From assembly GCF_030685535.1 (NCBI RefSeq), contig NZ_CP131599.1, forward strand, positions 1,364,001 through 1,428,000: a stretch of DNA of 64,000 nucleotides, written 5' to 3'. A program made the position numbers and the translations under genes. Origin of the DNA: Photobacterium leiognathi. Its GTDB lineage: Bacteria; Pseudomonadota; Gammaproteobacteria; Enterobacterales; Vibrionaceae. The notes under the pieces were generated by a model that was given only the letters and a program-made list of their open reading frames with translations, searched no databases and was not told the DNA's origin. This document shows, one piece after another, positions 43,773-50,836 of this stretch. Position 1 is the first letter of the stretch. The number at the start of each line of letters is the position of its first letter.

Positions 43773-43849
43773 TGGCGGAGCGGACGGGACTCGAACCCGC
43801 GACCCCCGGCGTGACAGGCAGGTATTCTAACCAACTGAACTACCGCTCC
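43773..43849 (-). tRNA. tRNA-Asp (GUC)
   Basis: This 77-nt tRNA has an acceptor GGAGCGG/CCGCTCC, discriminator G and encoded CCA; the anticodon loop CTGTCAC gives GUC. The anticodon stem reads CCTGC against GCCGG, so the 29-41 pair is U-C, a mismatch. E. coli has a paired U-A there. The T-arm and D-arm are normal. Confidence 0.93.
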
Positions 43850-43889
43850 AATTCTTTGTGAAACCCGATTTCATCGAATCTCTAGAATA

Positions 43890-43980
43890 TGGCGGAGAGA
43901 TAGGGATTTGAACCCTAGATACGCTATTAACGTATGCCGGTTTTCAAGACCGGTGCTTTCAACCACTCAGCCATCTCTCC
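43890..43980 (-). tRNA. tRNA-Ser (UGA)
   Basis: This 91-nt class II tRNA has an acceptor GGAGAGA/TCTCTCC, encoded GCCA, anticodon loop TCTTGAAAA within a CCGG stem (UGA), and a long variable arm ACGTTAATAGCGT. It is 40 bp upstream of tRNA-Asp and co-transcribed. Confidence 0.95.
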
Positions 43981-44117: not shown

Positions 44118-44774
44118 TTATCCTGCTAATTTATCAGCGTTTAATTGTGATGCTAACAATTCACGTCCTTGCGGTGTAATACGCAAACACTCCTCAAACT
44201 GCGGATAACGCTGACTTTCAATTTGGTAATATGCCGCTAGCAACTCAGGCTCTAAACCAACTCGCTCTCTTGCCTCTTTCAATGTCAGATCCATTAACTC
44301 TGAATAGTTAATTTTATCTAACGGTTGGCAATCTGAGACATAGCCTAAATGTGCCGCTTTCTTAAAAACGACTATATCTTCATCAGAAAATTTATAAGGC
44401 CCCGGGTACAGGTACTTCGCTGCAAAGGTGTACATTTTCTTTTCTGCAGTCGTCATCCTATTAGAAGACCCCATAGTAAAACCAATCACGAACGCTTCGT
44501 CTTTTGGCAACATACCTCGACCTAATAAAAGATGAATCACGTCATGATCTTCAAGACTTACCGCACCGTTAAATAAATTAATTCCCGGTATATCGAATTT
44601 TGGATTTTCAATTAACCTAACAATTAAAGGAATATCAGCACTACCAGCAGCAACTGGCGCTTGAGTTGCTAAACATTCACGTACCGTGGCATTTTCTTCT
44701 TCTAAAGGTACGTACCACTTTTTCCAATGTGTTCCTTTTACTGGCAGTAAGCTCTTTTGTTGTTGATTATCCAT
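44118..44774 (-). CDS. Coq4-motif protein, last gene of the envelope operon
   Basis: The 218-residue soluble protein is unrecognised overall. It contains His77-Asp78-x-x-His81-x11-Glu93 (HDVIHLLLG...E), exactly the HDxxH-x11-E metal motif of Coq4, including the Gly four residues after the last His. Its later LKEARERVGLEPE also resembles the Coq4 end. Coq4 acts in ubiquinone biosynthesis. AAGGATG precedes the ATG, which lies 18 bp after the telA-like stop. Function here is not known; a metal-dependent role on a lipid or quinone-like substrate is inference. Confidence 0.7.
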   Translation of the reverse strand: MDNQQQKSLLPVKGTHWKKWYVPLEEENATVRECLATQAPVAAGSADIPLIVRLIENPKFDIPGINLFNGAVSLEDHDVIHLLLGRGMLPKDEAFVIGFTMGSSNRMTTAEKKMYTFAAKYLYPGPYKFSDEDIVVFKKAAHLGYVSDCQPLDKINYSELMDLTLKEARERVGLEPELLAAYYQIESQRYPQFEECLRITPQGRELLASQLNADKLAG

Positions 44775-44792
44775 CGCTTCATCCTTTTAGCT

Positions 44793-45971
44793 TTATAATT
44801 CAATTAACTGAGACAGATTACTTTGAATTTCTTTACCTTTTTCAGCATCTTTAATGCGATTTTCCATCTGCTCGGTTAAATGATCCATTTCCAAAATAGA
44901 TTCCGCCATTTGCGGCAGTGCTTTCACACGGTATTGGCTAATATCATTTAATGCGGCATTGATATTAGAAAACGCTTGTTTAAGCTTAGTAATATCTAAC
45001 TGACTTTCAGAGGCTTGTTTTTGAATCGTCACCCCTTGATCTCGAAGTTGCTCACTGGTTTGTAAAATCAAATCATTGGTTGTTTCATTGACCGCTTGCG
45101 TTGCTTTTAAGAGCTTCTTTTGATGTTGCAGAGCAATAGACATCACTGATGCTGTTTCAAGCGCAGAAACCGTAACGTTAATAGCACGATCAACACCACG
45201 AATAAGTTCACGGTTATTTTGCATGATCACCTCTGTAGTGATCACTGCTTGCTGGTTCACAGCTAAAGTTTGCTGTAAGTCCATGACACGCTGACGCAAT
45301 GGAAATAGTACTTGTTCTTGTAAAAACTTAACTTGGCTTTCAGCTAAGCTTTGCGTCTCAAGCGTTCCACTTACTTTGGTATCAAGTAGTTGACCAAAAC
45401 GAACATAATCTTCTAATAAAAACGTCAGTTCACGATAACGAATTTGATCATCTTCTAGCGTGATATTGTCACGTTGTAATTGCGCTTGCCCGCCACGAAG
45501 TGATTGCACAATGTCTTTGATCACCCCTTCTGCTGTTTGGTAACGAGCAAACCATTTCGCAATAGGCGTACCGATAAAAGGAAGAAAGCTCAATAATCGA
45601 CGGATAGTTCCCATCGTAAAATCGGTACGATTAGGGTTAACCGCATTCACTTGCTGTTGCAGATCCAACAAGCTTTTCGCCGTTCCGCCGCCATCTTGCG
45701 CATCATCGACTAAAGTATGTAACGGAGTTTTCAATAATTGGCTGCATTGCGCTAACTGACGACAACTATCTTCGCCCAACGATGAAATTAAATTAGCCAT
45801 ATCACGTTGTTCAGTAAGATCCCGCTCACCAATCGCCAATAGCGCAGTTAAGGTATCTTCAACTTTACGGGTTATTTTGTCACTTGATTCTGAACTAGAA
45901 ACAGGGATATCTAATGTCTTTTTTACAGTATCAGGTGTCGCTAATATTAATGTCGTGTCTTGTTGTGCCAT
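44793..45971 (-). CDS. TelA/KlaA-family (toxic anion resistance) protein
   Basis: The protein has about 392 residues and starts MAQQDTTLILATPDTVKK. It is strongly helical with coiled coils. The PF05816-type core includes RRLLSFLPFIGTPIAKWFARYQTA and later blocks of Leu/Gln-rich helices with VIMQNNRELIRGVDRAINVTVSAL. TelA proteins are cytoplasmic, linked to tellurite or toxic-anion resistance in plasmids, and often paired with XpaC. I chose the ATG at 45971 (AGGAT upstream). The frame is open further to 46046 but would overlap the upstream gene. It lies 10 bp after that gene. Confidence 0.88.
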   Translation of the reverse strand: MAQQDTTLILATPDTVKKTLDIPVSSSESSDKITRKVEDTLTALLAIGERDLTEQRDMANLISSLGEDSCRQLAQCSQLLKTPLHTLVDDAQDGGGTAKSLLDLQQQVNAVNPNRTDFTMGTIRRLLSFLPFIGTPIAKWFARYQTAEGVIKDIVQSLRGGQAQLQRDNITLEDDQIRYRELTFLLEDYVRFGQLLDTKVSGTLETQSLAESQVKFLQEQVLFPLRQRVMDLQQTLAVNQQAVITTEVIMQNNRELIRGVDRAINVTVSALETASVMSIALQHQKKLLKATQAVNETTNDLILQTSEQLRDQGVTIQKQASESQLDITKLKQAFSNINAALNDISQYRVKALPQMAESILEMDHLTEQMENRIKDAEKGKEIQSNLSQLIEL

Positions 45972-45981
45972 TTTTCTATCC

Positions 45982-46782
45982 TTAACGAGTACTGTATTTT
46001 TGTGCACGTTGAGCAAGTAGACGTAACTCTTCCATCGCAGTTTCAAGCTCCATGCCCTGCTGCGAAGAAATTAATGATAGTTGCGTCGTTACACGATCAA
46101 GCTCAGTCATCGCTTGCTCGTTTTCCGTCAATACGGTGGAAATATGTTGCTGAGATTGTTGGTAGATCTCGACACGCTTTTGCAGCGCATCCATTTGTTG
46201 TTCAATAAGAGGAGATGATTCTACCGACGTTACTCGCTCGGCTTTTAAGCTCTGTATTTGTTGATTAATGTGCGCATAATCAATACCAGATAACGCTTTA
46301 GCGCTGACTACTACGGCTCGAAGATTATCGAGAGCACCAACAAAGACCGCTTCAGCCATCGTTAAATAACGTGAATACGCCAACTCATCTTTATTTAATT
46401 TGCTATCAAGCACATGCTGAAAGGCGGCAAACTTTCGGCTTAACTGCTCAAGCTGTTTTAACGCATCGGCTTGCTTGATCTCATTTAATGCCTGTTGTAG
46501 ATCAGCCAGTGCTTGTTCACGCTTTAGCAATAAAGAACGGTGATAATGTTCAACAATCTCTAACGCATGATGCTGATACTTAACTTGATATCCCCAACAT
46601 ATTTTCGCAAAACATACGGTGCCAGCAGTAAGGCTGATGCCCCAACTTAAAACACTGCCATCAAACAACACGCTATACACAGTTCCGACAACAGCAATCA
46701 CACCGCTATACAATACGCTCGGTGCTTGAATGCTTTTAGAAATAACCTGTTTTCTTATTGCTTCAGGTGAAAGAAGATCCAA
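45982..46782 (-). CDS. XpaC-like membrane coiled-coil protein, TelA partner
   Basis: The 266-residue protein has two membrane helices near the N-terminus (about 22-42 and 46-62), then a long helical/coiled-coil cytoplasmic part. Size, topology and position directly before telA fit the XpaC-like partner often encoded next to TelA. The start is TTG at 46782 behind a perfect AGGAG. Its role is unknown; it may anchor TelA to the membrane. Confidence 0.6.
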   Translation of the reverse strand: MDLLSPEAIRKQVISKSIQAPSVLYSGVIAVVGTVYSVLFDGSVLSWGISLTAGTVCFAKICWGYQVKYQHHALEIVEHYHRSLLLKREQALADLQQALNEIKQADALKQLEQLSRKFAAFQHVLDSKLNKDELAYSRYLTMAEAVFVGALDNLRAVVVSAKALSGIDYAHINQQIQSLKAERVTSVESSPLIEQQMDALQKRVEIYQQSQQHISTVLTENEQAMTELDRVTTQLSLISSQQGMELETAMEELRLLAQRAQKYSTR

Positions 46783-46793
46783 AATAACTCCTT

Positions 46794-48320
46794 TTAATAG
46801 GTCTCACTTAACAGTGCGATTTCCACTCGCATTAACCTATTGGCATAACGACGCTGACTTTCCCCGCTTAATCGCTCAAGCGGCTCCTTGCTACCTTTGC
46901 CTATTGCGTGGATACGGCTCGCTTCAAACCCCAACTCATTGACTAAATAATGTTTCACAGCTTTAGCTCGTTGCGCAGAAAGCTGCTCATTTAATGCTTT
47001 GTCACCACGTAAGCCAGTATGGCCTTCAACTAAAATCCTAAATTTAGGGTAATGCGTTAAGCTTTCAGCCGTTTGTTTAAGTTGTTTTTTTCCGTTTGCA
47101 GTCAGTTGATCACTACCACTTGAGAAAATGACAGGCCGTGTTTTTAAGGTGCCAATTTCAGACATGTGAGACCACTGAAGATCCGTTAATGCCTTGAACG
47201 ATAGTGATGTTGATAATTGCGGGTTTTCTTGCAGACCTAAGTTATTCAGTGTCTTTGCTACTGTTTGTATTGGTAGCGAGTTAATCAATCGATAAGGATC
47301 GTTATCAGGTAACCATTGCTCCGCTTTGCCAGAAGTATCGTTAATCACACCAATCGTGCTTTCAATCGTATCTATCAACAATTGCTGCTGACTAAACCAT
47401 CCCTGTGTATTACCTTTTAGCCCAACCCATTCCACACCATTAAGTAATTGCTTCACTTGTTGCTGTGGTAAATCCGTAACATTCTCTAGCTCGTTAACCA
47501 ATTCAGATGGATGATCACGATAATATTTCAGCACTTTAAAATAGGTTGCTAAAAGCGAATCTAACTGCTCGGGTTTATTTTTAATGAAGGTTTTATTAGC
47601 AAGTAATACATCTACAATTAAGTTTTTAGTCTCTGCTGTGCTGATAACTGTCGTGAAATTACCTTTAGCAAGTGCGGTTGATACATCCGGTTCCCACAAC
47701 ACCGCAACATCTAATTTTCCCTTTAGCAGTTGCTCTAACGCGTTACTTGAACCTGATGTGGGGATACGATCAATATGGCTTGCTTTAAAAACATCTAAGT
47801 CAAAATGCGAAGAAATAGCTCGAAGCAAAAACTCACTAGGCGAGTCTTGGGTATAACCTAACGATAAATCTTTCGCTTTTTTTAAGTCATTTATTGATTT
47901 AACTGCATCACTGTTAGCAACAATGACATCACCACCTTTTGATTCATCGATTACTGCTACAATGCTGGCAGGATAACGAAAATCATGCCCTGCCGTGATA
48001 TAAGCATCAACAGTAGCAACCGCTAAATCAAGCTCACCTGTTTCTAACCCTTTCATGCGCTTTAAATAGTCAGCACCATCATCAATACATGACAGACGGT
48101 AGCCTTCACGACGCATTAAACGACGCATCTCTTTAGAACAAAGTGGATAATAGCCAACCCAGTTATCAACCCCTATCGTAATATCCCCTTTTGTTCCTCG
48201 GGCATCAGAGGTATCGGCATATAAATGTTCATCAATATGCGGTTGCATAACTTTGTAGCCAATCAATGCCAATACACCAGCCACTAAGATAAAGAGAGCA
48301 ATTTTGCTGTGCTTTTGCAT
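46794..48320 (-). CDS. Membrane-anchored substrate-binding/OmpA fusion protein
   Basis: The 508-residue protein has an N-terminal signal anchor (about 7-25) and a NitT/TauT/NMT1-like substrate-binding domain (about 45-330: VDNWVGYYPLCSKEM, GELDLAVATVDAYI, KLDVAVLWEPDVSTAL). A C-terminal OmpA-like peptidoglycan-binding domain spans about 390-503 (EGHTGLRG, LNEQLSAQRAKAVKHYL, GKGSKEP, NRLMRVEI). The join of a solute receptor and murein-binding domain is unusual. It is paralogous in layout to the gene at 49121-50836. AGAGGAAAGG precedes the ATG. Confidence 0.85.
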   Translation of the reverse strand: MQKHSKIALFILVAGVLALIGYKVMQPHIDEHLYADTSDARGTKGDITIGVDNWVGYYPLCSKEMRRLMRREGYRLSCIDDGADYLKRMKGLETGELDLAVATVDAYITAGHDFRYPASIVAVIDESKGGDVIVANSDAVKSINDLKKAKDLSLGYTQDSPSEFLLRAISSHFDLDVFKASHIDRIPTSGSSNALEQLLKGKLDVAVLWEPDVSTALAKGNFTTVISTAETKNLIVDVLLANKTFIKNKPEQLDSLLATYFKVLKYYRDHPSELVNELENVTDLPQQQVKQLLNGVEWVGLKGNTQGWFSQQQLLIDTIESTIGVINDTSGKAEQWLPDNDPYRLINSLPIQTVAKTLNNLGLQENPQLSTSLSFKALTDLQWSHMSEIGTLKTRPVIFSSGSDQLTANGKKQLKQTAESLTHYPKFRILVEGHTGLRGDKALNEQLSAQRAKAVKHYLVNELGFEASRIHAIGKGSKEPLERLSGESQRRYANRLMRVEIALLSETY

Positions 48321-48337
48321 CCTTTCCTCTTTATGAC

Positions 48338-49111
48338 TTAATTAAAGCTAGAGACATCAAATTGCGCAGATTCAGCAAGCACACTCTGCAAACCTGCTAA
48401 TAACTTCTCAGGGTTATTGGCAGATTGGTAATAAGTGATCCCTTCCGCGTTCAGTGCATGTCGATTGCCGATACAAAAGCCAATAGTATGAATGGTCACA
48501 GGCGAGTTTTGATAAATACGGCTAATGGCAACTTCCGGCTCTTCACCTACACTCGCATCACCGTCAGTCACGATGACGACATTATATTCACCATAACCTA
48601 ATTGCTTTTCCGCCTGCTTTTCTAATGCGGTGTACCCAGATGTTAATGAGCTTTTTAGCGGTGTCGTCCCGCCTGCTTTCACGTCATAAATAGCTTGTTT
48701 TAATGTCGCACGATTATTGATACCTAATGGCACTCGTAGCGATGAATCAGCATTATCAAAGACATATAAACCAACATTCGCATCTTGTGGAATATCATTA
48801 ATAAAGGTTTGCATCGCTTCTTTAGCGGCAACAATTTTTCTCTGACCATTACCACAATTGGTATTATCCATCGAACCACTACCATCAAAGATCAATAAAT
48901 AGTTCGCCGCTAACCAGTTATCACTCGATGAGGTTTGAGTATTATTCAGCGTCGGCCAATTATTTTTTAATGCATCAAAACCATAACCAGTTGAGACAGC
49001 AAGCAAACTCGGTGCAGACACTAACTGTTGTGATGTCGGCTTATCTTTCATGCTCTTATTAATAAAGAACGCCGCTAATCCGACGCATATAAATAAAGTA
49101 AATTTATTCAT
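48338..49111 (-). CDS. Membrane-anchored von Willebrand factor A domain protein
   Basis: The 257-residue protein has an N-terminal membrane helix (about 4-18) and a vWA domain (about 70-245). The MIDAS metal site is intact: Asp76-x-Ser78-x-Ser80 (DGSGSMDN), a Thr in GGTTPLKSS and an Asp in VTDGDASVGEE. It is probably periplasmic or membrane-associated and mediates Mg-dependent contacts with partners. It is set between the two substrate-binding/OmpA fusions (gaps 9 and 17 bp). Confidence 0.88.
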   Translation of the reverse strand: MNKFTLFICVGLAAFFINKSMKDKPTSQQLVSAPSLLAVSTGYGFDALKNNWPTLNNTQTSSSDNWLAANYLLIFDGSGSMDNTNCGNGQRKIVAAKEAMQTFINDIPQDANVGLYVFDNADSSLRVPLGINNRATLKQAIYDVKAGGTTPLKSSLTSGYTALEKQAEKQLGYGEYNVVIVTDGDASVGEEPEVAISRIYQNSPVTIHTIGFCIGNRHALNAEGITYYQSANNPEKLLAGLQSVLAESAQFDVSSFN

Positions 49112-49120
49112 GACCAGCCC

Positions 49121-50836
49121 CTATAATGGTTGGAATACATCAGATTCAGCTTCAAGCTGAATAATTCGAAACACAACACGCATATTTGAACGCCATTCAG
49201 CTTCAGTTGCTGGCGCACAAGGATCGCCACCGCACATGCCTGTTTTAGGATTACCAAAACCGTGTCCAACAAGAGCAAACTGACTTGAATCAAGTGCTAC
49301 GCCTTGATCTGTTGCAAATATCAGGACACTTTCTTTTACGCTCTGCGCTCGTGACAGGCTGATATTGCGATTCGATTGCTTAATGCGGTTAAGCACCACA
49401 CCAGTTTCGCCTTTTTTCTTTGAGCGTAAGTATTTAAGCGGATCACTATGTCCTTCCACAGTGATCACAGCGCCACCATAAGTTGAAGCAAGCTCAATCA
49501 CTCGTAAGAACTCTGACTTATACAGTTGCGGATCAAATTTGTTTTGGTTCGGTTGGAAAGCAACTTCAAAAGAAAATAGCTCGCCATCTTCTAATGAATT
49601 CTGTTGCTGTTTTTTAGCAACGACCGAAGCAACACGTTCGCTGTTAAATCGTGATTTGTTACTGAATGCCACATCAGCCCCTAATTGAGAAAAATCCCAA
49701 TTGGCTAATAATGGCAGTTGCGTAGCTGATGTAAGCCCAAGCGTTTTTAGTGTGCTTTGTATTTCTTGGCTTACTTTAGTGATATTTCGTGGGTAGGCTT
49801 TATCGGTAAAAAGTTGTTTATTTGCATTAATGCCTAAATGCTCAGCATCTGCGTAAAGACCTTTCACATCTTCATGAGCGTCTGGGGAATCTAATAGTAA
49901 ATCTGCTGAATATGTCAGTAACGGTGTTACCTGCGCACTAGTGTTAGCGGTATTAGTGAATAATGTTTTTACTTCCGCTATTGCTGTATTTAACGCTTTT
50001 ACAAAATTCATCACTTCAGCACGATGACTTTTAAAGTAATCAGCACGAACAGCATACACATCTGCAATAACTCTGTTCGCTGTCTTTGTTGACATCAATA
50101 TTTTGGCGCCTTTCACCGAATCCTCAGCGCCCGTTCCCACCGTGCCGCCAGATGTTAACGCTAATGCATCCGGCAAAATAACAAATACCGCATCAACATC
50201 AACTTCGTATAAGGCACTAAATGGACTGTTGTCTGTACCTGTCAGATCTGGCAGCCATTTAATCGTGACATCTGAAGGTGTGAGTCCTGCATCTTTTAAT
50301 ACCGCTCCCATATAATCGACATGCGGTCCATAAGCTTGCAAGGCGATTGTTTTCCCTTTTAGATCGGCAACCGTACGAATATTTGGCTTCACTACTAACG
50401 CATCACCACCCGATGACCATGATAATTGATGAATTATCACAGGCTGTACAGCAGGTTTATTGGCAAGTAGATCCGACGCGGCATTAATCATGCCTAATGT
50501 GCCACGTAAGTAAGGAGTTTGACCTGATAAGTAATGAGAAAGCTGATCTGAGAATGTGTCATTACGCTTTAACGTATATTTCAAACCATAACTAGCAAAA
50601 AGAGAATCTGCTGAGGTTATCGCTTGGCTGCCATTAGCATAAATCGTATTAATATCAGCCCCCCATGTAATAACAGGTAGTGCATGGGGTTGATTTTTTA
50701 CCGAAGATACAGGGGTAGTGATCAACTGTTCTAGAGGAATGGGGTCTATATATTTAGGTTTAGCAACAACATGTGTTGATGTAGCAAACACTATTAGCGC
50801 AGCAAAATAGCTAGCATATCTCTTCATCAATCCCAT
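49121..50836 (-). CDS. Secreted substrate-binding/OmpA fusion protein
   Basis: The 571-residue protein has a signal peptide ending ...THVVA-KP and a substrate-binding domain (about 50-365, TVADLKGKTIALQAYGPH, VDVDAVFVILPDAL). A long C-terminal OmpA-like domain spans about 420-560 (VITVEGHSDPL, NRNISLSRAQSVKESV, GHGFGNPK, NMRVVFRI). It is the first gene of a six-gene operon; GAGGGAT stands before the ATG. It resembles the downstream fusion in design, but a clear signal peptide suggests that it is freed from the inner membrane. Confidence 0.85.
   Translation of the reverse strand: MGLMKRYASYFAALIVFATSTHVVAKPKYIDPIPLEQLITTPVSSVKNQPHALPVITWGADINTIYANGSQAITSADSLFASYGLKYTLKRNDTFSDQLSHYLSGQTPYLRGTLGMINAASDLLANKPAVQPVIIHQLSWSSGGDALVVKPNIRTVADLKGKTIALQAYGPHVDYMGAVLKDAGLTPSDVTIKWLPDLTGTDNSPFSALYEVDVDAVFVILPDALALTSGGTVGTGAEDSVKGAKILMSTKTANRVIADVYAVRADYFKSHRAEVMNFVKALNTAIAEVKTLFTNTANTSAQVTPLLTYSADLLLDSPDAHEDVKGLYADAEHLGINANKQLFTDKAYPRNITKVSQEIQSTLKTLGLTSATQLPLLANWDFSQLGADVAFSNKSRFNSERVASVVAKKQQQNSLEDGELFSFEVAFQPNQNKFDPQLYKSEFLRVIELASTYGGAVITVEGHSDPLKYLRSKKKGETGVVLNRIKQSNRNISLSRAQSVKESVLIFATDQGVALDSSQFALVGHGFGNPKTGMCGGDPCAPATEAEWRSNMRVVFRIIQLEAESDVFQPL

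Follow-up and report, generated by a model that had tools for sequence, protein, structure and literature searches.

A TelA-containing six-gene locus of Photobacterium leiognathi as a candidate importer-less form of a recurring trans-envelope module

What would a TelA-family protein do beneath the bacterial inner membrane in the company of solute-binding and wall-binding proteins? The question is raised by a locus in a 64,000-nucleotide stretch of the Photobacterium leiognathi genome (contig NZ_CP131599.1, positions 1,364,001 to 1,428,000 of the forward strand), hereafter called the window, where six adjacent genes on the minus strand (50836-44118), numbered g1 to g6 in reading order, encode a solute-binding/OmpA fusion, a vWA protein, a second solute-binding/OmpA fusion, a membrane protein with a coiled-coil-like part, TelA, and a helical protein with an HDxxH-x11-E motif. 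In the literature searched, which covered few subscription papers, we found no description of an operon combining TelA, a vWA protein and a fusion of a solute-binding protein (SBP) with OmpA. Here we report that the six genes recur together across several phyla, and we tentatively interpret the operon as a conserved trans-envelope module in its TelA-type form, without an importer, namely a solute-responsive, wall-tethered membrane scaffold in which TelA would have a PspA-like role by a mechanism that we infer below. We regard this interpretation as possible, though somewhat short of probable.

Open reading frame calls confirmed the six genes, and the gaps from g1 to g6 measured 9, 17, 11, 10 and 18 bp, with a purine-rich stretch upstream of the starts, in agreement with a first-pass annotation that had described six same-strand genes with 9-18 bp gaps and ribosome-binding sites. 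A consensus scan gave no promoter support, with 9 promoter-like sites observed vs 20.1 expected from shuffled sequence, and it is therefore from gene spacing alone that g1-g6 are predicted to share one transcript.

To the question of whether the genes form a unit, comparison of genomes gives a direct answer. Species genomes scanned with a g6 alignment yielded 146 loci. Of the best 80 of these 146, 22 hold a relative of g1, g2 or g3 within the stretch that was fetched; they represent Pseudomonadota, Verrucomicrobiota, Poribacteria, Hydrogenedentota, KSB1, SAR324, a Chloroflexi bin and another bin. These linkage counts were obtained by phmmer with the window proteins and are not circular, whereas matches of module profiles, built from the same loci, are partly so. 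The 22 include four Photobacterium near-copies (L068-L071); one further locus (L114), whose contig begins after g3, was counted through its genes for a PspA-like protein, an AAA ATPase, a third binding protein (SBP3), a permease and an ABC ATPase, bringing the linked loci to 23. The g1-g6 order is kept in L068-L072, the last of which is from Oceanobacter, and in the verrucomicrobial locus L143, where the same six genes in the same order encode proteins with 47, 33, 39, 25, 39 and 42% identity to g1-g6; elsewhere order and orientation vary, g6 lying ahead, behind or on the opposite strand. The order is thus not unique to this strain, and the view of g1-g6 as one conserved unit is supported.

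The module is rare but widely spread: g1 was found in 2 and g6 in 1 of 398 Pseudomonadota genomes. Both g1 genomes carry TelA, and in one of them (G159) a single contig holds the two genes at a distance of 3.4 kb. Among 150 genomes drawn from the window's family, g1 occurs in 6, all of one genus and all with the full six-gene order. The window g6 shares 99% identity with its counterpart at a locus in Photobacterium lucens and 88% with that of P. angustum. Within the genus the operon is patchy: 39 congeneric genomes matched talB, and in the 6 of them that were selected, the 13.8-15 kb fetched next to this gene contained none of g1-g6.

The cytoplasmic partner of this unit, g5 (44793-45971, minus strand), was confirmed as TelA by a match of 216.3 bits to PF05816 (cut-off 30) over model positions 4-331 of 332; the ATG at 45971 was preferred to an upstream TTG at 46046. 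It is predicted to be cytoplasmic, its structural model contains long helices at 136-206 and 211-299, and it is the only PF05816 match in its own genome. A PDB sequence search with TelA gave no useful relative. The TelA profile at 1e-10 detected the family in 42 of the 398 Pseudomonadota genomes; TelA is also present in 31 of the 150 genomes of the window's family, where the other TelA genes have different surroundings. At one such locus (L039) a gene for a 1621-residue DUF3686 and AAA protein and one for a PLD-like protein precede TelA, with open reading frames similar in size at L060 and L053; a further congeneric genome (L033, 8030-10915, minus strand) has TerD with a pair of neighbouring TelA-family genes after it, one of them weak (60.6 bits).

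In other lineages that carry the module, a PspA/Vipp1-like protein of ~270 residues stands in TelA's place, usually together with a VCP-like AAA ATPase whose nearest relatives are VCP/Cdc48-type ATPases. When the profile of the PspA-like protein was compared with PDB sequences, the best 8 of the 19 matches listed were all Vipp1/PspA (E 0.0033-0.017), and some of its relatives are named 'phage shock protein A'. Across 19 module genomes, from which the near-copies L068-L071 were left out, 9 contain TelA only, 8 the PspA-like protein only, 2 neither (L090, L134) and none both; the two proteins are used exclusively in the genomes searched. In a g1 tree of 21 rows, which has several long and weakly placed branches, Verrucomicrobiota contribute four rows, which are divided between the two sides, DG1235 grouping with the TelA types.

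The PspA form of this neighbourhood is already on record. Ravi et al. 2024 (PMC11237479) briefly note operons of PspA/Snf7 and AAA genes with an ABC ATPase, a permease and a PBPB-OmpA protein, which resemble the module described here in the SBP-OmpA fusion, the ABC genes and the sub-membrane coiled-coil protein; loci of this kind that also hold relatives of g2 and g6 are L098, L106, L123, L127, L130 and L135. The window operon differs from them in that TelA and g4 take the place of the PspA-like protein and the AAA ATPase, a vWA gene is present and an importer is lacking; by Pfam, neither PspA nor an AAA ATPase is among its six genes, which places it outside the definition of those operons. 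The text of PMC11237479 contains 'vWA' 0 times and 'tela' 0 times, and g6 does not appear in its module passages. The first-pass statement that no such system had been described is thus half right: the TelA form, which was not found in the literature searched, is a variant of a module whose PspA/AAA form appears in that paper.

Many of the linked loci carry in addition an importer. SBP3, which is free of OmpA, accompanies a permease and an ABC ATPase in 12 of the 23, and three Vibrio plasmid records contain ATPase-g1-g2-g3-g4-g5-SBP3-permease in a row. The PGAP name there is 'phosphate ABC transporter substrate-binding/OmpA family protein' for g3 and 'toxic anion resistance protein' for g5; on a fourth plasmid, that of V. 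coralliilyticus, the module is represented by no more than g1 and g2, both diverged. On large Vibrio plasmids (L148, L149, L151) the module lies near a gene for an RctB-domain initiator, and a PRTRC gene is present. Of 7 SBP3 proteins scanned, 5 pass the cut-off of TIGR03427 (417-535 bits), a family of binding proteins named 'putative urea ABC transporter', and g3 of Vibrio has a weak likeness to the same family (52.3 bits); a PDB sequence search with SBP3 gave no useful relative. As for a substrate clue, no riboswitch was detected at the Rfam gathering cut-off in the window, where the only matches are two tRNAs, or in 14 sister loci. PMC13296017 describes a urea-carboxylase-associated transporter, and because a guanidine substrate would follow solely from this description and the TIGR03427 name, we name no substrate.

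How the proteins are built bears on what they could do together. g1 (49121-50836, minus strand) has a signal-peptide-like N-terminus, an NMT1/SsuA-type solute-binding domain (NMT1, 37.1 bits; cut-off 20.5) and a C-terminal OmpA-like domain that is weak in Pfam (16.5 bits, under the cut-off of 27.2). Residues D465, S493 and R496 of the OmpA part, which include the GHxD Asp and the SxxRA Arg, are invariant in 19 of 19 aligned relatives. The GHxD Asp of OmpA domains binds diaminopimelate; the Asp of g1 is presumed to bind peptidoglycan in the same way, and wall contact by g1 is supported. g1 is 45% identical to a Vibrio plasmid protein, and its matches bearing on a ligand class are weak and to taurine- and nitrate-type chains only. 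g3 (46794-48320, minus strand) appears to be membrane-anchored by a single transmembrane peak at residues 7-25 of a hydropathy scan, followed by an NMT1-type solute-binding domain (35.9 bits) and an OmpA domain (70.0 bits; cut-off 27.2) in which, in an alignment read by eye, the GHxD Asp is replaced in 19 of 19 relatives. The two had been annotated as wall-binding receptor/OmpA fusions, g1 being secreted. For g1 this holds, its solute-binding domain being clear and its OmpA part retaining the key residues although under the Pfam cut-off; for g3 it is doubtful, because the presumed peptidoglycan-binding Asp is lost.

g2 (48338-49111, minus strand) matches VWA_2 with 47.5 bits vs a cut-off of 27, and its MIDAS residues (DxSxS..T..D; D76, S78, S80, T150 and D183) show no exception in an alignment of 18 vWA proteins, as expected for the membrane vWA protein with intact MIDAS first proposed. 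Judged from its N-terminus, a hydrophobic anchor or signal, the vWA domain seems extracytoplasmic; among relatives inspected by eye, a lipobox-like GC lies near the N-terminus in 7 of 18 and a hydrophobic tail at the C-terminus in 4 of 18. Independent support for the SBP and vWA parts working together comes from their fusion in one protein elsewhere. In this second layout, found in three records (L032, L154, L156), an SBP_bac_11-vWA chain (named 'substrate-binding and VWA domain-containing protein' by PGAP) lies beside TelA and a small membrane-like protein, the fusion, TelA and two further proteins being shared; the host of L032 belongs to the window's family, and the other hosts are Variovorax and Sphaerotilus. 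Such clusters resemble the window operon in TelA, SBP, vWA and a small unannotated protein, and differ in carrying SBP and vWA on one chain, which in L032 has no OmpA by Pfam. The corresponding four-gene cluster (L032 6540-10983, L154, L155, L156) includes the SBP/vWA fusion, an unannotated protein of ~360 residues and a protein of ~205 residues, with TelA in 3 of 4; a Deinococcus plasmid has the fusion set without TelA within the stretch viewed.

g4 (45982-46782, minus strand, TTG start) is predicted to consist of one or more N-terminal membrane segments followed by a coiled-coil-like helical part. It had been described as an XpaC-like, two-transmembrane coiled-coil protein, of which the helical part stands, but the second transmembrane segment gave no separate peak in a simple hydropathy scan. 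The XpaC label found no support: the XpaC family, which we take to be PF10112, is absent from the three weak Pfam matches of g4, all under cut-off, and, when 15 relatives were compared with Pfam, from the top 25 of the 35 families matched. g4 belongs to no known family, and the PDB sequence search returned no solved relative with E < 0.1. At loci of the PspA-like type, relatives of g4 reach 30-44 bits only (L093, L106, L114).

g6 (44118-44774, minus strand) encodes a 218-residue helical protein in which the previously noted HDxxH-x11-E motif (H77, D78, H81, E93) is invariant in 75 aligned relatives. In a Foldseek search with its structural model (pLDDT 91.2), two Nostoc structures of the Coq4 family rank highest, 3msq at E 0.25 and 6e12 at E 0.31 (TM-scores 0.33), and g6 shares the motif with the Coq4 family (PF05019). 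The window protein itself, however, has no Pfam match, and 24 of the 75 relatives match PF05019 weakly (best E 2.4e-4, not above cut-off); the unrelated family L27_N matches 11 of 75 (best E 4.8e-5), and a PDB sequence search gave no useful relative. Of the Coq4 label, a remote relationship is retained but not family membership: g6 is at most a remote Coq4-fold relative. Many genes of this family stand alone (e.g. L109, L111, L116, L122, L126), and recurrent neighbours of g6 include an SmpB gene (6 loci) and a gene with a rhodanese domain (5 loci).

Some observations concern the surroundings. Immediately downstream of g6, tRNA-Asp and tRNA-Ser genes lie adjacent on the minus strand (43773-43980), with a strong terminator-like hairpin near the pair at 43765-43742. 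Horizontal gain of the operon was considered and rejected, its base composition being ordinary (GC 0.409 vs 0.404 for the window). g5-g6 also occur in two metagenome bins labelled Bordetella parapertussis (L105, L115), the first of which has almost all of the module; the label is probably wrong.

Taken from wall to cytoplasm, a trans-envelope layout, proposed on first pass, is supported by sequence, with wall contact by g1 and the intact vWA site. We propose that g1 at the peptidoglycan and g3 at the inner membrane, to which they would be tethered, bind a small nitrogen- or sulfur-type solute, like their NrtA/SsuA/TauA relatives, and that their loading state could alter a contact with g2, the membrane-anchored vWA protein, that depends on a divalent metal. 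g4 might then relay the signal across the membrane and recruit or release TelA, which would assemble beneath the inner membrane into a scaffold that stabilises or remodels it, as PspA/Vipp1-like proteins with an AAA ATPase do elsewhere. g6 may handle a lipid or quinone close to this scaffold, and in importer-bearing lineages the importer would take up the same solute that g1 and g3 sense. A stricter version, which we hold to be rather doubtful, would make TelA the functional counterpart of PspA/ESCRT-III scaffolds, with solute-gated membrane maintenance through g1/g3, a vWA clamp and g4 requiring neither importer nor AAA ATPase, and with the Coq4-fold g6 supplying or removing lipid or quinone at the scaffold.

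Several findings weigh against the scaffold interpretation. The TelA model is poor (mean pLDDT 65.0) and its Foldseek matches are unspecific, none with E < 0.001; VIPP1/Vipp1 chains rank 5, 8, 11, 16 and 28 among these helical matches (E 0.12-0.30). In sequence, TelA and the PspA-like family show no kinship by hhalign (probability 0.2, E 0.28), by which TelA as a divergent, homologous PspA was rejected, the fold search being uninformative; because the sequences are unlike and the quality of the TelA model does not allow a claim about fold, the exchange would be replacement by an analogue, not by a relative. The PspA-like protein itself matches Pfam PspA in 4 of 6 members, all below its cut-off. 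Many of the 19 module genomes are metagenome bins, so an absent TelA or PspA-like protein may reflect incompleteness, and the rows are not independent. Two TIGR03427 proteins above cut-off are encoded on other contigs of the Oceanobacter genome (L072). As to g6, no relatives of g1-g3 were found in the fetched stretches of 58 of the 80 g6 loci, nor in 23 of the 39 full 20-kb ones, and G159 and the Vibrio plasmid loci carry the core without g6.

These last counts indicate that g6 is optional and also has an independent existence, and they raise a question separate from the mechanism, namely whether g6 stands outside the system as a free-standing Coq4-like protein that is a neighbour by chance. 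We consider this improbable, though not markedly so: g6 adjoins the core in many lineages in varied order and orientation, which chance or a single inherited order explains poorly, while a search for loci by means of g6 overstates how often it lies next to the core.

The importer suggests another explanation of the core, in which g1 and g3 would catch a scarce solute at the wall and pass it to the ABC importer, while vWA, g4 and TelA merely organise the importer complex. The importer's presence at about half of the linked loci and the TIGR03427 likeness of both SBP3 and Vibrio g3 favour it. In the window's genome, however, no TIGR03427 protein was found at E 1e-5 and permease matches reached 20 bits only, although the search covered the binding protein and the permease but no ATPases, and the core could still serve an unrelated importer; Marinobacter SS21, whose operon likewise lacks the importer, also has no TIGR03427 match, and DG1235, of the same type, has one of 147 bits on a different contig. 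At least in Photobacterium, therefore, the core can exist without that importer, and we judge an uptake accessory unlikely.

Less likely still is a Ter-like resistance to toxic anions, or to xenobiotics or phages, with TelA as the effector. The TelA family name points that way, and PMC7824862 places TelA and the TerF vWA protein of Ter systems (TerC, TerD, TelA, TerF) among parts 'forming sub-membrane structures', a pairing of TelA with vWA and a proposed membrane-linked role that the window operon shares. The operon differs in its solute-binding and OmpA domains, and a scan for Ter families, which covered the six genes alone, recognised no TerB, TerC or TerD. The TerF vWA protein is cytoplasmic, unlike the window vWA protein, which would be periplasmic by its N-terminus. 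A defence system was rejected, because PADLOC has no model for the six-gene set beyond weak matches of TelA to JetA1 (E 3.7e-5) and of g3, through its OmpA part, to ZorB (E 9.7e-8).

TelA is common yet poorly understood, and the module gives a first concrete idea of its possible role. With TelA and a PspA/Vipp1-like protein alternating at one position of a shared gene neighbourhood, and never both in 19 genomes, that role becomes directly testable, and the questions raised are whether TelA assembles at the membrane, whether it can substitute for the PspA-like protein and whether a solute controls it. If the scaffold interpretation is true, the envelope stress systems of bacteria, which are few, would gain an input based on vWA and solute binding.

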